Below the pieces are notes generated by a model. That model saw nothing but the letters and a program-made list of their open reading frames with translations, was not told the DNA's origin and did not search any database. Positions 3 to 55,051 of a stretch of 64,000 nt of DNA are shown piece after piece. The stretch is taken from NCBI GenBank assembly GCA_025765615.1, contig JAIVFJ010000001.1:124001-188000 (forward strand), in the 5' to 3' direction. Made by a program: the position numbers and the translations under genes. Position 1 is the stretch's first letter. Each line of letters starts with the position of its first letter. Source of the DNA: Zopfochytrium polystomum. Lineage: Eukaryota > Chytridiomycota > Chytridiomycetes > Chytridiales > Chytridiaceae.

Positions 3-2393
3 TGGAAGACTGCCTTCAGATGCAAATACGGTCACTTTGAGTACTTGGTTATGCCCTTTGGACTTACCAATGCTCCAGCTATTTTCCAAGGCATGATGAA
101 TGACATCTTCAGGGATATTCTGGACCTTTTTGTCATTGTCTACCTGGATGATATCCTGGTATTTTCATCTGACACTGCAAGCCATATGGGACATGTCAAG
201 ACTGTCTTGGAGAGACTCAGACAGCATCACCTCTATGCAAAGCTGGAGAAGTGTGAATTCCACAAGACCTCCATTGAGTTTTTGGGGTTCATTGTGTCTG
301 ACAAAGGGATCTCCATGGCACCAGACAAGATCCAAACTATTCTTGAATGGAAGGCTCCAAATTCCATCAAGGATGTTCAAAGCTTCCTTGGATTTTGCAA
401 CTTCTACAGAACCTTCATTGCCAACTATTCTGCCATAGCCAAGCCTCTCACTGATCTCACCAAGAAGACCACCAAGTTTGAATGGACCCCAGCAGCAGAG
501 CAAGCCTGGCTAGCTCTTAAGACAGCAACCACAAGTGCACCACTCCTTAAGCATGTGGATCCCTTGCTTCCCTTCACCTTGGAAACTGATGCCTCAGACT
601 ATGCCCTTGGCGCTGTTCTGTCCCAGCCAAGCTCTCAGGACCCCTCTGCTCCTCTGCATCCAGTGGCATATTACTCCAGGAAGCTGAACAGTGCTGAGTG
701 TAACTACACAGTCCATGACAAGGAGTTGCTTGCAATTGTGGAAGCATTCAAATTCTGGAGACACTACTTGGCTGGTTCTAAAGGCATCTCTGTCTATTCT
801 GATCACAAGAACCTCACCTTCTTCAGGGCAAGGAGGTTGCTCAAGCAGAGGCATGCCAGGTGGGCTGAACTGCTCTCTGAGTATGACTTTAAGCTGTGCT
901 ATTCTCCTGGCCACCTTAACACTGTGGCTGATGCCCTGTCAAGAAGAACAGACCTTGCACCTGAAGGGGGAGATGGTTTCACCCCACCATCCAAGACACA
1001 CCTTTCATTGCTTCCTGACAGTGTGTGGGCCTATGCTATTTCCAAGGACCCCAAGCCTCACAAGATTCAAATCAGCCAAGAAGAGGAAAAACTTGAGATA
1101 CTCAAGACAAGGCATGATGCAGCAACAGCTGGACACCCAGGAGAGCACAAGACATATGAGCTTGTTTCCAGAGACTTCTACTGGCCAGGCATGAGGAAGT
1201 ACATCAAGAACTATGTCAGCAGCTGTGAAACCTGTCAAAGAAACAAATCCAGCAGACACAAGCCCTATGGACTTCTGGAGCCCCTCCCAATTGCCATCAG
1301 CCCTTGGTCATCAATATCCATGGACTTCATTGTGAAACTGCCCCCATCCCATGGATTTGACTCTATCCTTGTTGTCATCTGCAGAAGGACAAAGTTGGCC
1401 CATTTCATCCCCTGCACTGAGAATATAGATGCACAAGGAACAGCAGACCTGTTTTTGCAGCACATATTCAGGCTCCATGGGCTGCCTCAGTCAATCGTCA
1501 GTGACAGAGGACCACAGTTCAGATCTCAATTTTGGAAAGCACTCACAGCAGCCCTTGGAATCAAGTCTCAACTGTCAACTGCTTATCACCCTCAGACTGA
1601 TGGACAAACAGAAAGAACAAACCAGACTCTGGAGCAGTATTTGAGGTGCTATGTCAGCTATCAACAGGATGATTGGCCCACCCTCCTTCCACTGGCAGAA
1701 TTTGCTCTCAACAATTCTCTCCACTCAAGCACCCAGCTATCTCCTTTCTTTGCAACCTATGGCTTCAATCCAAGAGGAGATCTTCTGGGACAAGAGACCC
1801 TATCCAATGTCCAAGCTCCTGCTGCGGCTTCACACTTACATAAGCTCAAGATCATCAACTCCTTCCTGGACTCCACCCTGAAGCAAGCCCAAGAAGATGC
1901 CTCAAGATTTGCCAACACTCACAGAATGGACCATGACTTTGCTGTGGGTCAGCAAGTTTGGCTTCTGAGGAAGAACTTGCAGACCAAAAGACCAAGTCCC
2001 AAGCTAGACAACCTCAAGTTGGGTCCTTTCAAGATCTTGGAGCAAATCAATCCAGTCACCTTCAAGCTGGATCTCCCTGCATCCATGAAGATCCACCCAG
2101 TTTTCCATGTCAGCCTTTTAGAGAAGTTTGTGGCCAATTCCATTCCAGGCAGAGTTGTTCCTCCTCCTCCTCCAGTTGAGGTAGAAGGTGAAGAGGAATT
2201 TGAGGTTGAACAAATCTTGGATGCCAAGTGGTTTGGAAGGACACTCAAGTTCCTTGTTAAGTGGAAAGGTTACTCAGATGCTGACAACACCTGGGAGCCT
2301 GAGTCAAACCTCACTCACTGCCAAGACCTTCTGCTCGAGTTCAAGACCAGGTACCCCACCAAGTTGCAGAAGAGGCCTAAAAGGGGGAGATGA
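3..2393 (+). CDS. Pol polyprotein (RT-RNase H-integrase-chromodomain), N-terminally truncated by window edge
   Basis: 796 visible codons with no stop. The frame is already open at base 3 (WKTAFRCKYGHFEYLVMPFG), so no start should be assigned here. Reverse transcriptase: catalytic YLDD at about residue 47 of the visible part. RNase H: TDASDYALGAVLSQ at about 194-208. Integrase zinc finger: GHPGEHKTYEL then CETCQRNK at about 377-411. DDE core: D in MDFIV (~441), D in SDRGPQF (~500), E in TERTNQTLEQ (~537). A C-terminal chromodomain (about 732-788, with LKFLVKWKGYSD and NTWEPESNL) would tether integration to histone marks. Known role of the family: cDNA synthesis and chromosomal insertion. All catalytic residues in view are present. 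Confidence 0.97.
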   Translation, partial: WKTAFRCKYGHFEYLVMPFGLTNAPAIFQGMMNDIFRDILDLFVIVYLDDILVFSSDTASHMGHVKTVLERLRQHHLYAKLEKCEFHKTSIEFLGFIVSDKGISMAPDKIQTILEWKAPNSIKDVQSFLGFCNFYRTFIANYSAIAKPLTDLTKKTTKFEWTPAAEQAWLALKTATTSAPLLKHVDPLLPFTLETDASDYALGAVLSQPSSQDPSAPLHPVAYYSRKLNSAECNYTVHDKELLAIVEAFKFWRHYLAGSKGISVYSDHKNLTFFRARRLLKQRHARWAELLSEYDFKLCYSPGHLNTVADALSRRTDLAPEGGDGFTPPSKTHLSLLPDSVWAYAISKDPKPHKIQISQEEEKLEILKTRHDAATAGHPGEHKTYELVSRDFYWPGMRKYIKNYVSSCETCQRNKSSRHKPYGLLEPLPIAISPWSSISMDFIVKLPPSHGFDSILVVICRRTKLAHFIPCTENIDAQGTADLFLQHIFRLHGLPQSIVSDRGPQFRSQFWKALTAALGIKSQLSTAYHPQTDGQTERTNQTLEQYLRCYVSYQQDDWPTLLPLAEFALNNSLHSSTQLSPFFATYGFNPRGDLLGQETLSNVQAPAAASHLHKLKIINSFLDSTLKQAQEDASRFANTHRMDHDFAVGQQVWLLRKNLQTKRPSPKLDNLKLGPFKILEQINPVTFKLDLPASMKIHPVFHVSLLEKFVANSIPGRVVPPPPPVEVEGEEEFEVEQILDAKWFGRTLKFLVKWKGYSDADNTWEPESNLTHCQDLLLEFKTRYPTKLQKRPKRGR

Positions 2394-2411
2394 TGTTATG
2401 AATCACCCTCT

Positions 2412-2520
2412 GGAAACCTCTGGAACCTTCTAGAACATTCCTTCATGGAACCTTCTGGAACCTTCTGGAACATTCTAGAACATTCCTTCATGGAACATTG
2501 TGGAACCTTCTGGAACCTTC
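2412..2520 (+). promoter_or_regulatory. Heat-shock-element array in the LTR U3
   Basis: Three blocks of alternating GAA and TTC units spaced exactly as a heat-shock factor site (nGAAn repeated head to tail). GAA/TTC triplets sit at 2423, 2428, 2433, 2438. An eight-unit run then sits at 2448, 2453, 2458, 2463, 2468, 2473, 2478 and 2483, and another cluster at 2503, 2508, 2513 and 2518. HSF trimers need three such units, so this array could bind several trimers. It lies about 110-220 bp upstream of the TATA box. Heat induction is inferred from the motif. Confidence 0.8.
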
Positions 2521-2585
2521 TTTGCTTTCCTGACTTGTCTTGTTGTCATTGGTATCATTGGTATCATTGTATTACTAATTGCTCT

Positions 2586-2638
2586 TTCTGGAACTTTCTT
2601 TGAGTCTTGACAAGGAAGACTCTCAAAGGGTATAAAAG
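2586..2638 (+). promoter_or_regulatory. Core LTR promoter: proximal three-unit heat-shock element plus TATA box
   Basis: TTCtgGAActTTC at 2586-2598 is a perfect three-unit heat-shock element. TATAAAAG follows at 2631-2638, 32 bp downstream, so transcription would start around 2660-2670. Confidence 0.65.
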
Positions 2639-2746
2639 GGGGATGGGGGACCTGTCCCATCCCTCAAGTGAATTATTGTTTCCAATACAATCATCACTCC
2701 TCTCAGTTCCTTGTCTGCCTTGTCCTGTCCTGCCCTGTTCCTGACA

Positions 2747-36353: not shown

Positions 36354-37616
36354 CTATTCGAGCAAATCGCACCGGCTCTTCCAAACGCGGGCTTGTCTGC
36401 GCCACCACCGTTGGATCCAGTGACTTCTCAACGATAATGCCTTACTGTTAACAAAGTCCTCAAATGCTCGCTGATGCTCAGGCTGGCCTTCCAGCCACTG
36501 CTCAAACAGTCCGCTTTCTGCCCACCACTCAAGGGATTCCACGTCGTCCAAACTTGTATCCTGAAAGTAGTTCGGATTCCAGTCGACGACCAATCCACTT
36601 TCTAACCACCACTGCAAGCTTCTTGTTGCAGAGGCACAGACGGCGCTTCTGATAGACACTCCAGTGTAGCGGAGTTCGAAGCCGCTGTTCTTCCACCACT
36701 CGAGAACTTCAACTTCCTCAAGCTTGCTGGCGTCATCCATTGCCTCTGCACCGTACTTGAAATCAAGTTCACTGTCTTTCCACCACTGCAGCGCCCGAAC
36801 TGAGCCAGCGACTGATGCGCTCCACACTGCACGTTCATCGTACTTCAGGGGTAGGCCACTGTCCCTCCACCACTGCAGCACGTCGATGAGACCCTTTCCA
36901 CTTGCGTCCGTCAATGCGTGAATGCTGTACTTCAATTTGAGCCCACTTTCTTTCCACCACTGCAGCACGTCGATGAGACCCTTTCCACTTGCGTCCGTCA
37001 TTGCGTGAATGCTGTACTTCAATTTGAGCCCACTTTCTTTCCACCACTGCAGCACGATTGGATGCCCATCGCGGCTGGCATCGTCCATTGCAAAGTTGTT
37101 GTACTTGACGCGTAGCCCACTGTCTTTCCACCACTGCAGCAGGTCGATTCGCCCTCCCGCGCTGGCATACTGCATCGCCATCTCGGAGTATCTCATTTCC
37201 AGCCCACTGTCCCTCCACCGCTGGAGGATCTCGACGCTCATAACGCGGTCAAAGAAGCCGCCATTGTGCCAGCGCACCAACCGGTCCCTCGGAAGATTCT
37301 GCAACAAGAAATCCAGGAGGCTGACGGAGCCGATGCCGCTCAAATCCCGGCGACGCCAAAGTTTTTGAAAGTCCAGCGCCTGGAGTTGAGGCAGGCGAAA
37401 GAGCGTGGCGATTTTGAAGCGAGCGCGCGAGCCGTGGGTGTACGAGTGAATCGTTGTCGTGACAATGGAGGGAAGCCATCGTGGTCGACGTGATTGTGCC
37501 AGCGGTAAAGGGGGGTTGGCGATCGCTTTGGGGTAGTCTTTGGCGTCCGACATGTCGCTTTCTGCCAGCTCGTTGGGGGGGAGACTGTGCCGAGATCGTC
37601 GAGTTCTTCGTTTCAT
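36354..37616 (-). CDS. Protein of 29-residue 'LQWW' repeats (ankyrin-like solenoid)
   Basis: A single exon. I start at the ATG at 37616 (MKRRTRRSRHSLPPNEL); an in-frame ATG at 37646 and one at 37553 are alternatives. After a basic N-terminal region the protein is a series of about nine units of the form VLQWWKESGLKLKYS + AMTDASGKGLID: two aromatic Trp, a short helix, then a second Ala/Ser-rich helix. The helix-turn-helix pattern is like ankyrin repeats but keeps its own consensus. A basic C-terminus (HWIQRWWRRQARVW) ends the protein. Repeats of this kind form large families in chytrid genomes as far as I know; binding function is inference. Confidence 0.8.
   Translation of the reverse strand: MKRRTRRSRHSLPPNELAESDMSDAKDYPKAIANPPLPLAQSRRPRWLPSIVTTTIHSYTHGSRARFKIATLFRLPQLQALDFQKLWRRRDLSGIGSVSLLDFLLQNLPRDRLVRWHNGGFFDRVMSVEILQRWRDSGLEMRYSEMAMQYASAGGRIDLLQWWKDSGLRVKYNNFAMDDASRDGHPIVLQWWKESGLKLKYSIHAMTDASGKGLIDVLQWWKESGLKLKYSIHALTDASGKGLIDVLQWWRDSGLPLKYDERAVWSASVAGSVRALQWWKDSELDFKYGAEAMDDASKLEEVEVLEWWKNSGFELRYTGVSIRSAVCASATRSLQWWLESGLVVDWNPNYFQDTSLDDVESLEWWAESGLFEQWLEGQPEHQRAFEDFVNSKALSLRSHWIQRWWRRQARVWKSRCDLLE
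36876..37049 (-). repeat. Two near-identical 87-bp tandem units inside the repeat-protein gene
   Basis: The 87-bp segment from 36876 recurs from 36963 with almost no changes (one codon differs: Leu/Met), while the other units of the gene are diverged. 87 bp equals exactly one 29-codon repeat, so the frame is kept. A recent unequal-crossover duplication. Confidence 0.85.
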
Positions 37617-52404: not shown

Positions 52405-54477
52405 TCACCCGCACCAATCGTCTGTCCTCTTATCCTGCATGGCGTCCAGCTCCGCCCGCATAAACAGCCTCAAGTACAGCCGGCCCCAGAAGCTCCGCTT
52501 CAAGCTGCCCAGGGACGGCACGCCGTTCCACTCCCCCAGAACAGACCCGTCCCGGTACCGCTGCGGCTGGCACGGGCCCTTGATCGCCGGCGCCAGCGGT
52601 GGCTTTACCCCGCCGCACTCCAGTTGCGCCGCAACGGCCTCGTCCGGATAAACGAACCACCGCAGCCACTCGTGGGCGGGAATGATGCGCTGGCGGTGGC
52701 CGTCGTCGCGACTGCGTTTGGGCTCGGCGGCGGCCGCGACGGCCGCCGCCAGGCAGGCGTCCGCCAGGCACGTGTCTGCCAAGACCGCCGCCCGCCGCAG
52801 GTTCTCGCGCCGGTGCGCCGCGAGGTCAAACGCCTCCGCAGCGGCGGGCGGGAACGCCGCGCGGCTGTTCAAATTCAAGGCCGACAGGCGTTTCTCCGCC
52901 GGCAGCAGCATCAGCCCACCGCCATCGCCTCGGGGTTCCGCCCTGTGCCTCCAAGCGCCTGTCCGCGGGTCGAAGCGGTAGTCCGGGAGTAGCCGCCATC
53001 CGTGGGTCGCGACGAAATGCACGGCGTCGAGCAAGTACTGTACATCCGCGTCGTCGGCAAAGTACGGCACGCCGACGCGGGTCGCTCCCGGTTTGAGGAC
53101 CTCGTCGCCGGCGACGACGGCGTAGCCGAGTGCGACGATGTGATTGCGACGGAGGCCGAGCAGGCGGGCGCCGTAGGGTCCTGCGCAGTGGCAGCCGCCG
53201 CGGGAGAGCACGCCAAAGAGGTCGTTGAGCAGCGCGCAGACAAAGTTGTGGTGGAGGAAGCGGTCACCGAAGCGGACCATGAACGAAAAGATCGGGAGCT
53301 GGTGGTGGTGCTCTGGCGCGGATGGGTCGTTGTGGCCGAGGAGGACGATGTGGTCGTTTTGGGCCAGGGAGCGCCGCACTCGGCGCACGAGGTCGCGCTC
53401 GATGGCTGCGATGCGGGCGGCGCCGACGCGCAGCTTGAGCTCGATGGCGAGGCCGAGCCGGATGCTACCGAGGATGTCCGGCGTGCCGCCCTCCTCGCGC
53501 TCGACGGGGTTGGCGAGGTAGCTGTGTGCCTTTTCTGTGACGAACAGCACCGTGCCGCCGCCGGGGGCCGACGGGGGTGCGTTGCGCGGCAGGACGTCCC
53601 TCTTGACGATCAGCACACCGGGCGTCCCTGGCCCTCCCACAAACTTGTGTCCCGAAAAGAACACCGCGTCTTTGCTCGCGGCGGGGTCGCCGGACGGGTT
53701 CATGTCGATGTCAACGTACGGCGCCGCAGCAGCGTAGTCCCAAAAGGCTAGCGCGCCGTGCTTGTGGAGCAGTCGCGTGGTGCGGTCGACGTCCGCCAAC
53801 GCCCCCGTCACGTTCGACGCCGCGGTGAACGCGCCGATCTTGAGTTTGCGCCCGCGGAACCGAACCAGCTGCTGCTCCAGCTCGGCGTAATCGATCAGCG
53901 CGCCAAAGCCGTTTCCTCTGACTGGCCGCGCCTCGGGGATCTCGACGACGTCTGCGGCAAGCAGCTCCCGCCACGGCAGGAGGTTGGAGTGGTGGGCAAA
54001 GGGGCAAGTGAAGATGGCGGGGCGCGAGCTGGGCAGAGAGCTCCTTGGCATCCTGTCGAGGCCCATGGCCGTAATCAGTTTCGCGACGGCGCCAGTGCAG
54101 CCGTGACCGGCAAAGAGGACGACGTCGCGCCGTCCGGGGCCGTGGCCGCTGATCCAGGCGTTGACAGCCCTGGCAATCGTCTGGCGGGCTTCCTCGCGCA
54201 GCGCCGTGGTCTGCAGGCCAGTGATTGAGGTGGTGGTGTGCGTGTTTCCGTATGTCGGGAGGACGTTGGTTTGGATGAAGGCCTCGACGCACTCGAGGGC
54301 CCTGCCGCTGGCAGTGTAGTCTGCGTAGCACTGGGCTGTAGTCCCAAAGGGCGTGCGAAACAGCGCGTCGCGGCCTATAATTTGCTGGCGGATGTCGGCC
54401 AGCAGAGTGTCCGTCTGCTGCTGGTCCTGCTGGTCGTGCTGTTGCTGCTGCTGCGCATCGGAGCAGTGGGGCTTCAT
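52405..54477 (-). CDS. Class V aminotransferase / cysteine-desulfurase-like PLP enzyme
   Basis: 690 residues, one exon. I start at 54477 (MKPHCSDAQ followed by a Gln/Asp-rich stretch); the open frame extends upstream but overlaps a family fragment on the other strand. PLP fold-type I motifs: YADYTASGRALECVE, YGNTHTTTSITG, LFAGHGCTGAVAKLI, FTCPFAHHSNLLPW, FTAASNVTGALAD, FWDYAAAAPYVDIDM, and the Schiff-base lysine in FFSGHKFVGGPGTPGVL. A cysteine pair in GVLSRGGCHCAGPYG sits where SufS-type enzymes have their active Cys. A C-terminal region of about 170 residues (FDPRTGAWRHRAE onward) is additional to the enzyme fold. Sulfur or amino-group transfer is likely; the substrate is unknown. Confidence 0.85.
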   Translation of the reverse strand: MKPHCSDAQQQQQHDQQDQQQTDTLLADIRQQIIGRDALFRTPFGTTAQCYADYTASGRALECVEAFIQTNVLPTYGNTHTTTSITGLQTTALREEARQTIARAVNAWISGHGPGRRDVVLFAGHGCTGAVAKLITAMGLDRMPRSSLPSSRPAIFTCPFAHHSNLLPWRELLAADVVEIPEARPVRGNGFGALIDYAELEQQLVRFRGRKLKIGAFTAASNVTGALADVDRTTRLLHKHGALAFWDYAAAAPYVDIDMNPSGDPAASKDAVFFSGHKFVGGPGTPGVLIVKRDVLPRNAPPSAPGGGTVLFVTEKAHSYLANPVEREEGGTPDILGSIRLGLAIELKLRVGAARIAAIERDLVRRVRRSLAQNDHIVLLGHNDPSAPEHHHQLPIFSFMVRFGDRFLHHNFVCALLNDLFGVLSRGGCHCAGPYGARLLGLRRNHIVALGYAVVAGDEVLKPGATRVGVPYFADDADVQYLLDAVHFVATHGWRLLPDYRFDPRTGAWRHRAEPRGDGGGLMLLPAEKRLSALNLNSRAAFPPAAAEAFDLAAHRRENLRRAAVLADTCLADACLAAAVAAAAEPKRSRDDGHRQRIIPAHEWLRWFVYPDEAVAAQLECGGVKPPLAPAIKGPCQPQRYRDGSVLGEWNGVPSLGSLKRSFWGRLYLRLFMRAELDAMQDKRTDDWCG

Positions 54478-54904
54478 ATTGCAGCGGCTCCTCCTTCCTG
54501 CGCGACAAGCAGCAGGCGGCTGTTCCCGGAGGTTGTGGTAGTGAGTGCTGCGAGAGAGCGCTAGTGTAGCAACAAATGCGCGACAAGGGTTAACGAGTGG
54601 GTGGAGTGATGAGGGGCTGCTGGATGTGGCTGGCACAAGACACAAAATGAAGCAGAAAGAAGGGAAAAAAGCAGAAACCACATTGTGCTGCCCGTCACGT
54701 GATATGTCTAACCACAACAACCAAAAAAAAAAAATAATAATAATAATAATAAAAATAAAATCAAGGTTTGCCTCGTGTTGCCCTGGCTGTCTTCGCACAC
54801 AACGCGCACCCCCTGCAACGAACGGTGCACGAAATGCGCCGTGGCACCACCCCGTTTTTGGTACCGAAAGCCGAAGACCTTCGGGCCGTGAAGACAGCGA
54901 CCGC
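54478..54904. other. Promoter region of the class V aminotransferase gene
   Basis: AAT microsatellite at about 54733-54760. No coding signal I trust. Confidence 0.4.
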
Positions 54905-55051
54905 AACCCTGCTTCGAGAAAGCCACCCTTTTTCCACAACTGCGGGCCGGCCCGGGTGGCGGCGGACTTTGCCGTTCCAGAGAGCGTGGCGATCTTGGAC
55001 GCGACCGTGCTGGACGACGGCTTCAAGTGGAGTTTCCCCAAGTTGTGCTAA
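54905..55051 (+). pseudogene. 3' remnant of an eight-cysteine family gene
   Basis: Reads CGPA then ADFAVPESVA and ATVLDDGFKWSFPKLC with a stop at 55051, the end of the family's C-terminal domain; the preceding ~370 residues are missing. Confidence 0.7.

Follow-up and report, generated by a model that had tools for sequence, protein, structure and literature searches.

The first kilobases of the window, the 64,000-nt stretch of Zopfochytrium polystomum DNA analysed here (taken from an 80.2-Mb genome in 761 contigs), raise the question of whether a fungal retrotransposon is transcribed under the control of the host heat-shock factor. A Ty3 chromovirus occupies the first 2.7 kb of the window with its 3' part, the rest of it lying 5' of the window; the full element is L009:3778-9247, and the part inside the window covers positions 1-2746. 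The full pol ORF (L009:6255-8891) matches the Pfam domains RVT_1 (8.6e-40) and Chromo (2.3e-16), and the Pfam order RVT_1, RT_RNaseH, rve, Chromo is that of Ty3 chromoviruses. This bears out the assignment to a fungal Ty3 chromovirus made in the first-pass annotation, although the host is more exactly a chytrid, and it separates the element from ONSEN/COPIA78, whose pol is of the Copia type. Stops are present between the protease and RT ORFs in the frame tried. The LTR, originally delimited as 2412-2638, was corrected to the bounds given in Table 1. Both LTRs have TG...CA ends. A 5-bp target-site duplication, AAAGT, is found at 2747-2751 and again 5' of the 5' LTR, and R/U5 is identical between the two LTRs (217/217), indicating that the element is one recent insertion. 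No relatives were found in a pol scan of viral contigs. Frog-genome annotations account for several of the top named matches to pol, at ~53-62% identity and in many cases on very long contigs.

Table 1. Features of the chromovirus and its LTR; positions are those of the window unless a locus is named.
Feature	Position	Strand	Description
5' LTR	L009:3778-4140		363 bp
Internal ORFs, 5' to 3'			gag, protease, then an 879-aa RT/RNase H/integrase/chromodomain ORF
pol ORF, 3' part	3..2393	+	RT/RNase H, integrase, Tf2-type SH3, C-terminal chromodomain
Putative polypurine tract AAAAGGGGGAGA	2379..2390	+	just 5' of the 3' LTR; read directly, role presumed
3' LTR	2394..2746	+	353 bp, TG...CA
HSE array	2413..2520	+	22 slots of 5 bp on one lattice; GAA or TTC in 18
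Perfect alternating GAA/TTC run	2423-2440		4 units, exact 5-bp spacing
Perfect alternating GAA/TTC run	2448-2485		8 units, exact 5-bp spacing
Perfect alternating GAA/TTC run	2503-2520		4 units, exact 5-bp spacing
Separate perfect 3-unit HSE TTCtgGAActTTC	2586..2598	+	lattice differs from that of the array
TATA box TATAAAA	2631..2637	+
AAGTGAATTAT	2666..2676	+	predicted RNA 5' end (U3/R boundary), complement of the putative self-primer

Other features were observed further along the window. An aminotransferase class V ORF (52408-55041, minus strand) has its best named matches mostly in oomycetes (up to 68%) and in the chytrid Cladochytrium tenue (65%), for which lateral transfer is a possible origin. 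Six 87-bp tandem repeats (36727-37227) lie within an ORF bearing an ankyrin match, and the repeat families D4, D9, D11 and D12, with three diverged copies each between 55470 and 60757 (at ~55.5-55.9, 57.2-57.6 and 60.3-60.7 kb), apparently make up a repeated coding unit.

Within the LTR, at least sixteen GAA/TTC units in HSF register had been claimed, and eighteen were found on one lattice. The uninterrupted run of eight placed at 2447-2486, which is its span when the n bases are counted, was confirmed, as was a perfect three-unit site ending 32 bp before the TATAAAA at 2631. The further claim, that chance is a very unlikely source of the array, was checked against shuffled sequence. Among 20,000 dinucleotide shuffles of 2395-2526, a run of four arose in five and a longer run in none, and the 212,537 bp of this genome that were scanned beyond the family's LTRs held 150 runs of two and no run of three or more, so a chance origin of the array was rejected. 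The array is, however, a tandem repeat, which makes the dinucleotide shuffle too strict a null and means that the improbability was overstated. Under a tandem-repeat null, which asks how often an arbitrary 10-mer spells such an HSE run if tandemly amplified, the outcome was 197 of 61,230 10-mers for the host (0.3%), 27 of 4,730 for the internal element and 8 of 216 for the rest of the LTR (3.7%). The three-unit site, which arose in 58 of 20,000 shuffles of 2521-2631, lies off the array lattice and is therefore not explained by the array's repeat.

The 11 nt starting 2 nt past the 5' LTR are the exact complement of LTR positions 2666-2676, a match length reached by 23 of 20,000 shuffled versions of the 20-nt stretch that follows the LTR. 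In the self-priming of Tf1, 11 nt of the primer-binding site are complementary to the 5' terminus of the transcript itself, and the same arrangement here predicts an RNA start at 2666, which is 35 bp past the start of TATAAAA. Together, the positions of the TATA box and the putative self-primer place the array upstream of this predicted start, at -253 to -146 (perfect runs from -243), with the three-unit site at -80 to -68 and TATA at -35, so that all runs of at least three units would sit in U3. As in ONSEN, an HSE of the 4P type is thus found in the LTR upstream of the start, the start in this case being a predicted one. The Tf1 and Tf2 elements of fission yeast are likewise of the Ty3 type; an 11-nt self-primer, predicted for the present element, is part of their design, and a Tf2-type SH3 domain was found here; to our knowledge, no HSE array is known from Tf1 or Tf2.

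Genome-wide, the U5 25-mer has 1864 exact copies, a 22-mer anchor just 3' of the array has 1908 matches, and the terminal four-unit run occurs at 1770 places. A six-unit HSE pattern matches 2188 sites, against 0 for its backward control, and the six-unit matches listed (50, on contigs C1-C5) lie without exception in LTRs of this chromovirus family, 25 in number. A total of 68 LTR copies were extracted, with four that have no clear left end being measured over their last 91 bp. Of these copies, 36 come from loci chosen by R/U5 only (30 loci) or from L009, and 26 + 6 from loci chosen with the array, which biases the sample; the R/U5-found loci come from the best 41 matches listed, which leaves the most divergent copies under-represented. 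Perfect runs of four or more units are carried by 66 of the 68 copies, and by 34 of the 36 that were R/U5-chosen or from L009, while the remaining two of the 68 keep only 47 bp upstream of R/U5. Copies have up to 26 lattice units, with TTCtgGAActTTC intact in 62/68 and TATAAAA present in 65/68. It had been proposed that other LTR copies lacking the register would speak against a heat-shock design; the register was instead found to be kept in almost all of the copies read, and the idea that the array is peculiar to the window copy was rejected. Copy L055, the R/U5 of which is 90% identical, still has runs of six and four, showing persistence of the array in one older copy only.

Other arrangements of these LTRs were also seen. 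Five LTR anchors follow one another on the same strand at a constant interval of 3171 bp (G000 C6:359902-372607), which may reflect tandem repetition of an element shortened internally. Short LTR pairs of ~2.5-2.8 kb occur at C6:224217/227001, C611:11158/13707 and C311:18980/21788 (all G000), each with matching 5-bp flanks, and in L049 and L060, where partial pol is present; these pairs are probably non-autonomous derivatives sharing the HSE array.

The length of the array varies between copies. Where the left end is clear (64 copies), the upstream part measures 91 bp (21 copies), 136 bp (27) or 181 bp (5), with others from 47 to 156 bp, and the lengths change in steps of a 45-bp module and of 10 bp. 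In 59 of the 64 the lengths agree modulo 5, the exceptions being 47 (twice), 80, 90 and 104. Of 17 candidate LTR pairs that were checked, eight have matching 5-bp flanks and can therefore be taken as single insertions. In three of these eight the two LTRs carry arrays of unequal length, the difference being 10 bp in the window element and 55 and 45 bp in the other two, with 0, 4 and 1 substitutions in R/U5, respectively. With R/U5 nearly the same, this indicates that array length can evolve more quickly than the remainder of the LTR, the change arising either after insertion or during reverse transcription.

At the level of copies, no excess constraint on the GAA/TTC cores is visible: the terminal run has all 12 of its core bases intact at 1770 places, and a control of 12 bases, masked in the same way, sharing the 17-mer anchor and lying just 3' of the run, is intact at 1764. 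In the 136-bp class, the cores, spacers and R/U5 had diversities of 0.0025, 0.0252 and 0.0150, respectively (27 copies), and of 0.0037, 0.0363 and 0.0107 in its nine R/U5-chosen copies; the values for the 91-bp class were 0.0216, 0.0455 and 0.0216 (21 copies), and 0.0277, 0.0283 and 0.0201 in its 15 R/U5-chosen copies. Variable columns numbered 2/60 in cores against 8/49 in spacers for the first class and 4/33 against 7/31 for the second, or 6/93 against 15/80 when pooled (Fisher p 0.019, array-chosen copies included). For the R/U5-chosen copies the corresponding figures were 1/60 against 5/49 (9 copies) and 4/33 against 4/31 (15 copies), or 5/93 against 9/80 pooled (Fisher p 0.17). Purifying selection on the cores is thus not established by these comparisons, in which p < 0.05 was reached only when array-chosen copies were counted.

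The family is also depleted of CpG. The 3' LTR contains 0 CG against 16 expected and the internal region 13 against 267 (O/E 0.049), while the observed/expected ratio over window positions 2760-64000 is 1.08; 58 of 64 LTR copies are without any CG. Arginine is encoded in gag and pol by one CGN and 56 AGR codons, compared to 65 and 13 in one host ORF. Since gag and pol stay open, the CpG loss seems to belong to the replicating lineage as such and not to reflect decay of the window copy. Among ten ORFs from other CpG-poor or neighbouring stretches, Copia-type domains were found in two (L048 and L050) and the other eight had no Pfam match, so the loss is probably not unique to this chromovirus family. 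CpG-poor transposons would fit CpG methylation of transposons combined with deamination; the LTR, without CG, has CHG sites such as CTG.

On the side of the host, the HSF DNA-binding domain is matched 14 times in the genome, at 11 places, in an exon-by-exon count. The Hsf1-like protein studied has this domain and matches solved HSF1, HSF2 and HSF4 chains; among the matches listed, Zopfochytrium polystomum comes closest (85%, covering 60% of the query), followed by Cladochytrium tenue (71%, covering 69%), both species belonging to the Chytridiomycetes. The comparison with HSP promoters is one with HSP20, as the HSP90 stretch (L071) holds only 106 bp 5' of a TATA-like site and HSP70 falls outside it. 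The full domain is covered in 12 of 33 HSP20 matches, and the upstream stretches of 10 of the 12 were read, the two omitted having scores and frame lengths equal to those of a read copy. TATAAA is present in all ten of these promoters and a perfect three-unit run in none of the ten, while a gapped 3-of-4 HSE (GAAttgtccaGAAacTTC and close variants; GAAnn(G/A)TCnnGAAnnTTC) is found in eight, starting 49-93 bp 5' of TATA. With a background of 5 in 212,537 bp, 0.09 such sites would be expected against the eight seen, a Poisson excess that is overstated because the eight are probably paralogous and not independent. The host therefore uses the HSE grammar at these HSP20 genes, in a weaker form than that of the LTR. 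The LTR as a copied HSP20 promoter was accordingly rejected, and the earlier proposal that the element copies the host heat-shock promoter is not borne out at HSP20, a result that leaves HSP70 and HSP90 as potential models. The exon-by-exon counts of 33 HSP20 (PF00011) and 58 HSP70 (PF00012) matches, in which possible duplicate contigs are included, suggest a large chaperone repertoire.

The anatomy of the LTR, the prevalence of the array, the grammar of the host and the analogy with known elements all point to U3 being an Hsf1-driven promoter, probably boosted by heat, and we hold this reading with reasonable confidence. Several Hsf1 trimers would occupy the 5-bp lattice next to one another, as well as the proximal three-unit site, and bound Hsf1 would activate the TATA box at -35, with the resulting genomic RNA expected to prime its own reverse transcription via the Tf1-like 11-nt self-primer. 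Heat or proteotoxic stress would raise element RNA, probably over a basal Hsf1-driven level. The array would grow and shrink by 10 bp and by the 45-bp module with the register mostly kept, and copies could therefore differ in promoter strength if dosage follows array length. Fungal Hsf1, as known from yeast, has basal activity, and contiguous high-affinity HSEs are bound by it without stress. Long perfect arrays would suit such constitutive occupancy, under which transcription would be steady and heat induction mild, but 4P-type HREs accompany strong heat induction in the COPIA elements of the Brassicaceae (PMC5059998), and we consider a constitutive promoter rather unlikely. The constitutive and the heat-triggered readings share the Hsf1-binding step, and the computed results do not separate them.

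The array could alternatively be a neutral minisatellite, a 10-bp/45-bp repeat spread by slippage or by template switching of the reverse transcriptase, in which the HSEs are incidental. The differences within single insertions (10, 45 and 55 bp in 3/8 pairs with matching flanks) and the absence of excess core conservation (1770 against 1764) agree with this, whereas few 10-mers give HSEs when expanded (197/61,230 in the host and 27/4,730 in the internal element, though 8/216 in the rest of the LTR) and the off-lattice three-unit HSE adjoins the TATA box, which makes a purely neutral origin improbable. It is more doubtful still that the array serves another factor with an HSF fold (Skn7- or Sfl1-like), or a repressor, instead of Hsf1. 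Several related factors probably exist, given the 14 HSF-domain matches at 11 places, but the alternating GAA/TTC lattice of 5 bp is the grammar of Hsf1, present in gapped form at the HSP20 promoters.

An Hsf1-driven LTR of this kind would represent a strategy that is known in plants (PMC3907296, PMC5059998) and only suspected in fungi, for TCN3 and TCN12 (PMC12810828); the latter paper describes transposon heat activation via the host heat-shock machinery as not yet described in fungi. The parallel with ONSEN that had been drawn previously is supported as to mechanism, as are the dense HSE array in U3 of 66/68 copies and the Hsf1-like factor of the host. ONSEN/COPIA78 and TERESTRA of the Brassicaceae likewise have HSF sites in the LTR promoter, and the 4P HRE of ONSEN originated by duplication of a proto-HRE (PMC5059998). 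These are, however, plant Copia elements in which nGAAn motifs are clustered in fours (ONSEN) or in groups of up to six (TERESTRA) and for which heat induction has been measured, whereas the element here is a Ty3 chromovirus of a fungus, with 18 lattice units (up to 26 among its copies), ~1,900 LTR matches and within-element length variation. TCN3 and TCN12 of Cryptococcus are fungal LTR elements with putative HSEs and a mobility raised at 37 °C, but two such HSEs are given for TCN3 and one for TCN12 (PMC12810828), compared to 18 units here. For MAGGY of Magnaporthe, also a fungal LTR retrotransposon, stress-induced promoter activation is cited inside PMC3978060, the main text of which contains neither "heat shock element" nor "HSE". 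The Helitrons of Caenorhabditis are, like the present family, an HSE-rich class of transposable elements and hold 61.4% of C. elegans HSEs, but they are DNA transposons for which HSF-1 binding is shown, and not LTR promoters (PMC6927752). Within the open-access literature, the differences from known cases are the size of the array, its modularity and within-element variability, the copy number and the CpG-poor element.

Most copies read have ten to twenty HSE units or more, and there are ~1,900 LTR matches in the genome. On a broader and tentative view, which we regard as possible but doubtful, this CpG-poor family would be the genome's main holder of strong HSEs and its array a tunable dial within insertions; the family might then drive heat-triggered bursts of transposition, act as a sink for Hsf1 and serve as a source of heat-responsive promoters that reshape the host response. 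The natural array-length variants would allow testing of whether the number of HSEs sets promoter strength. The family is thus a strong candidate, by its sequence, for the activation of a fungal transposon by the heat-shock machinery, and it raises the question of whether the heat-shock response of the host is itself altered by a transposable element family with many strong HSEs.
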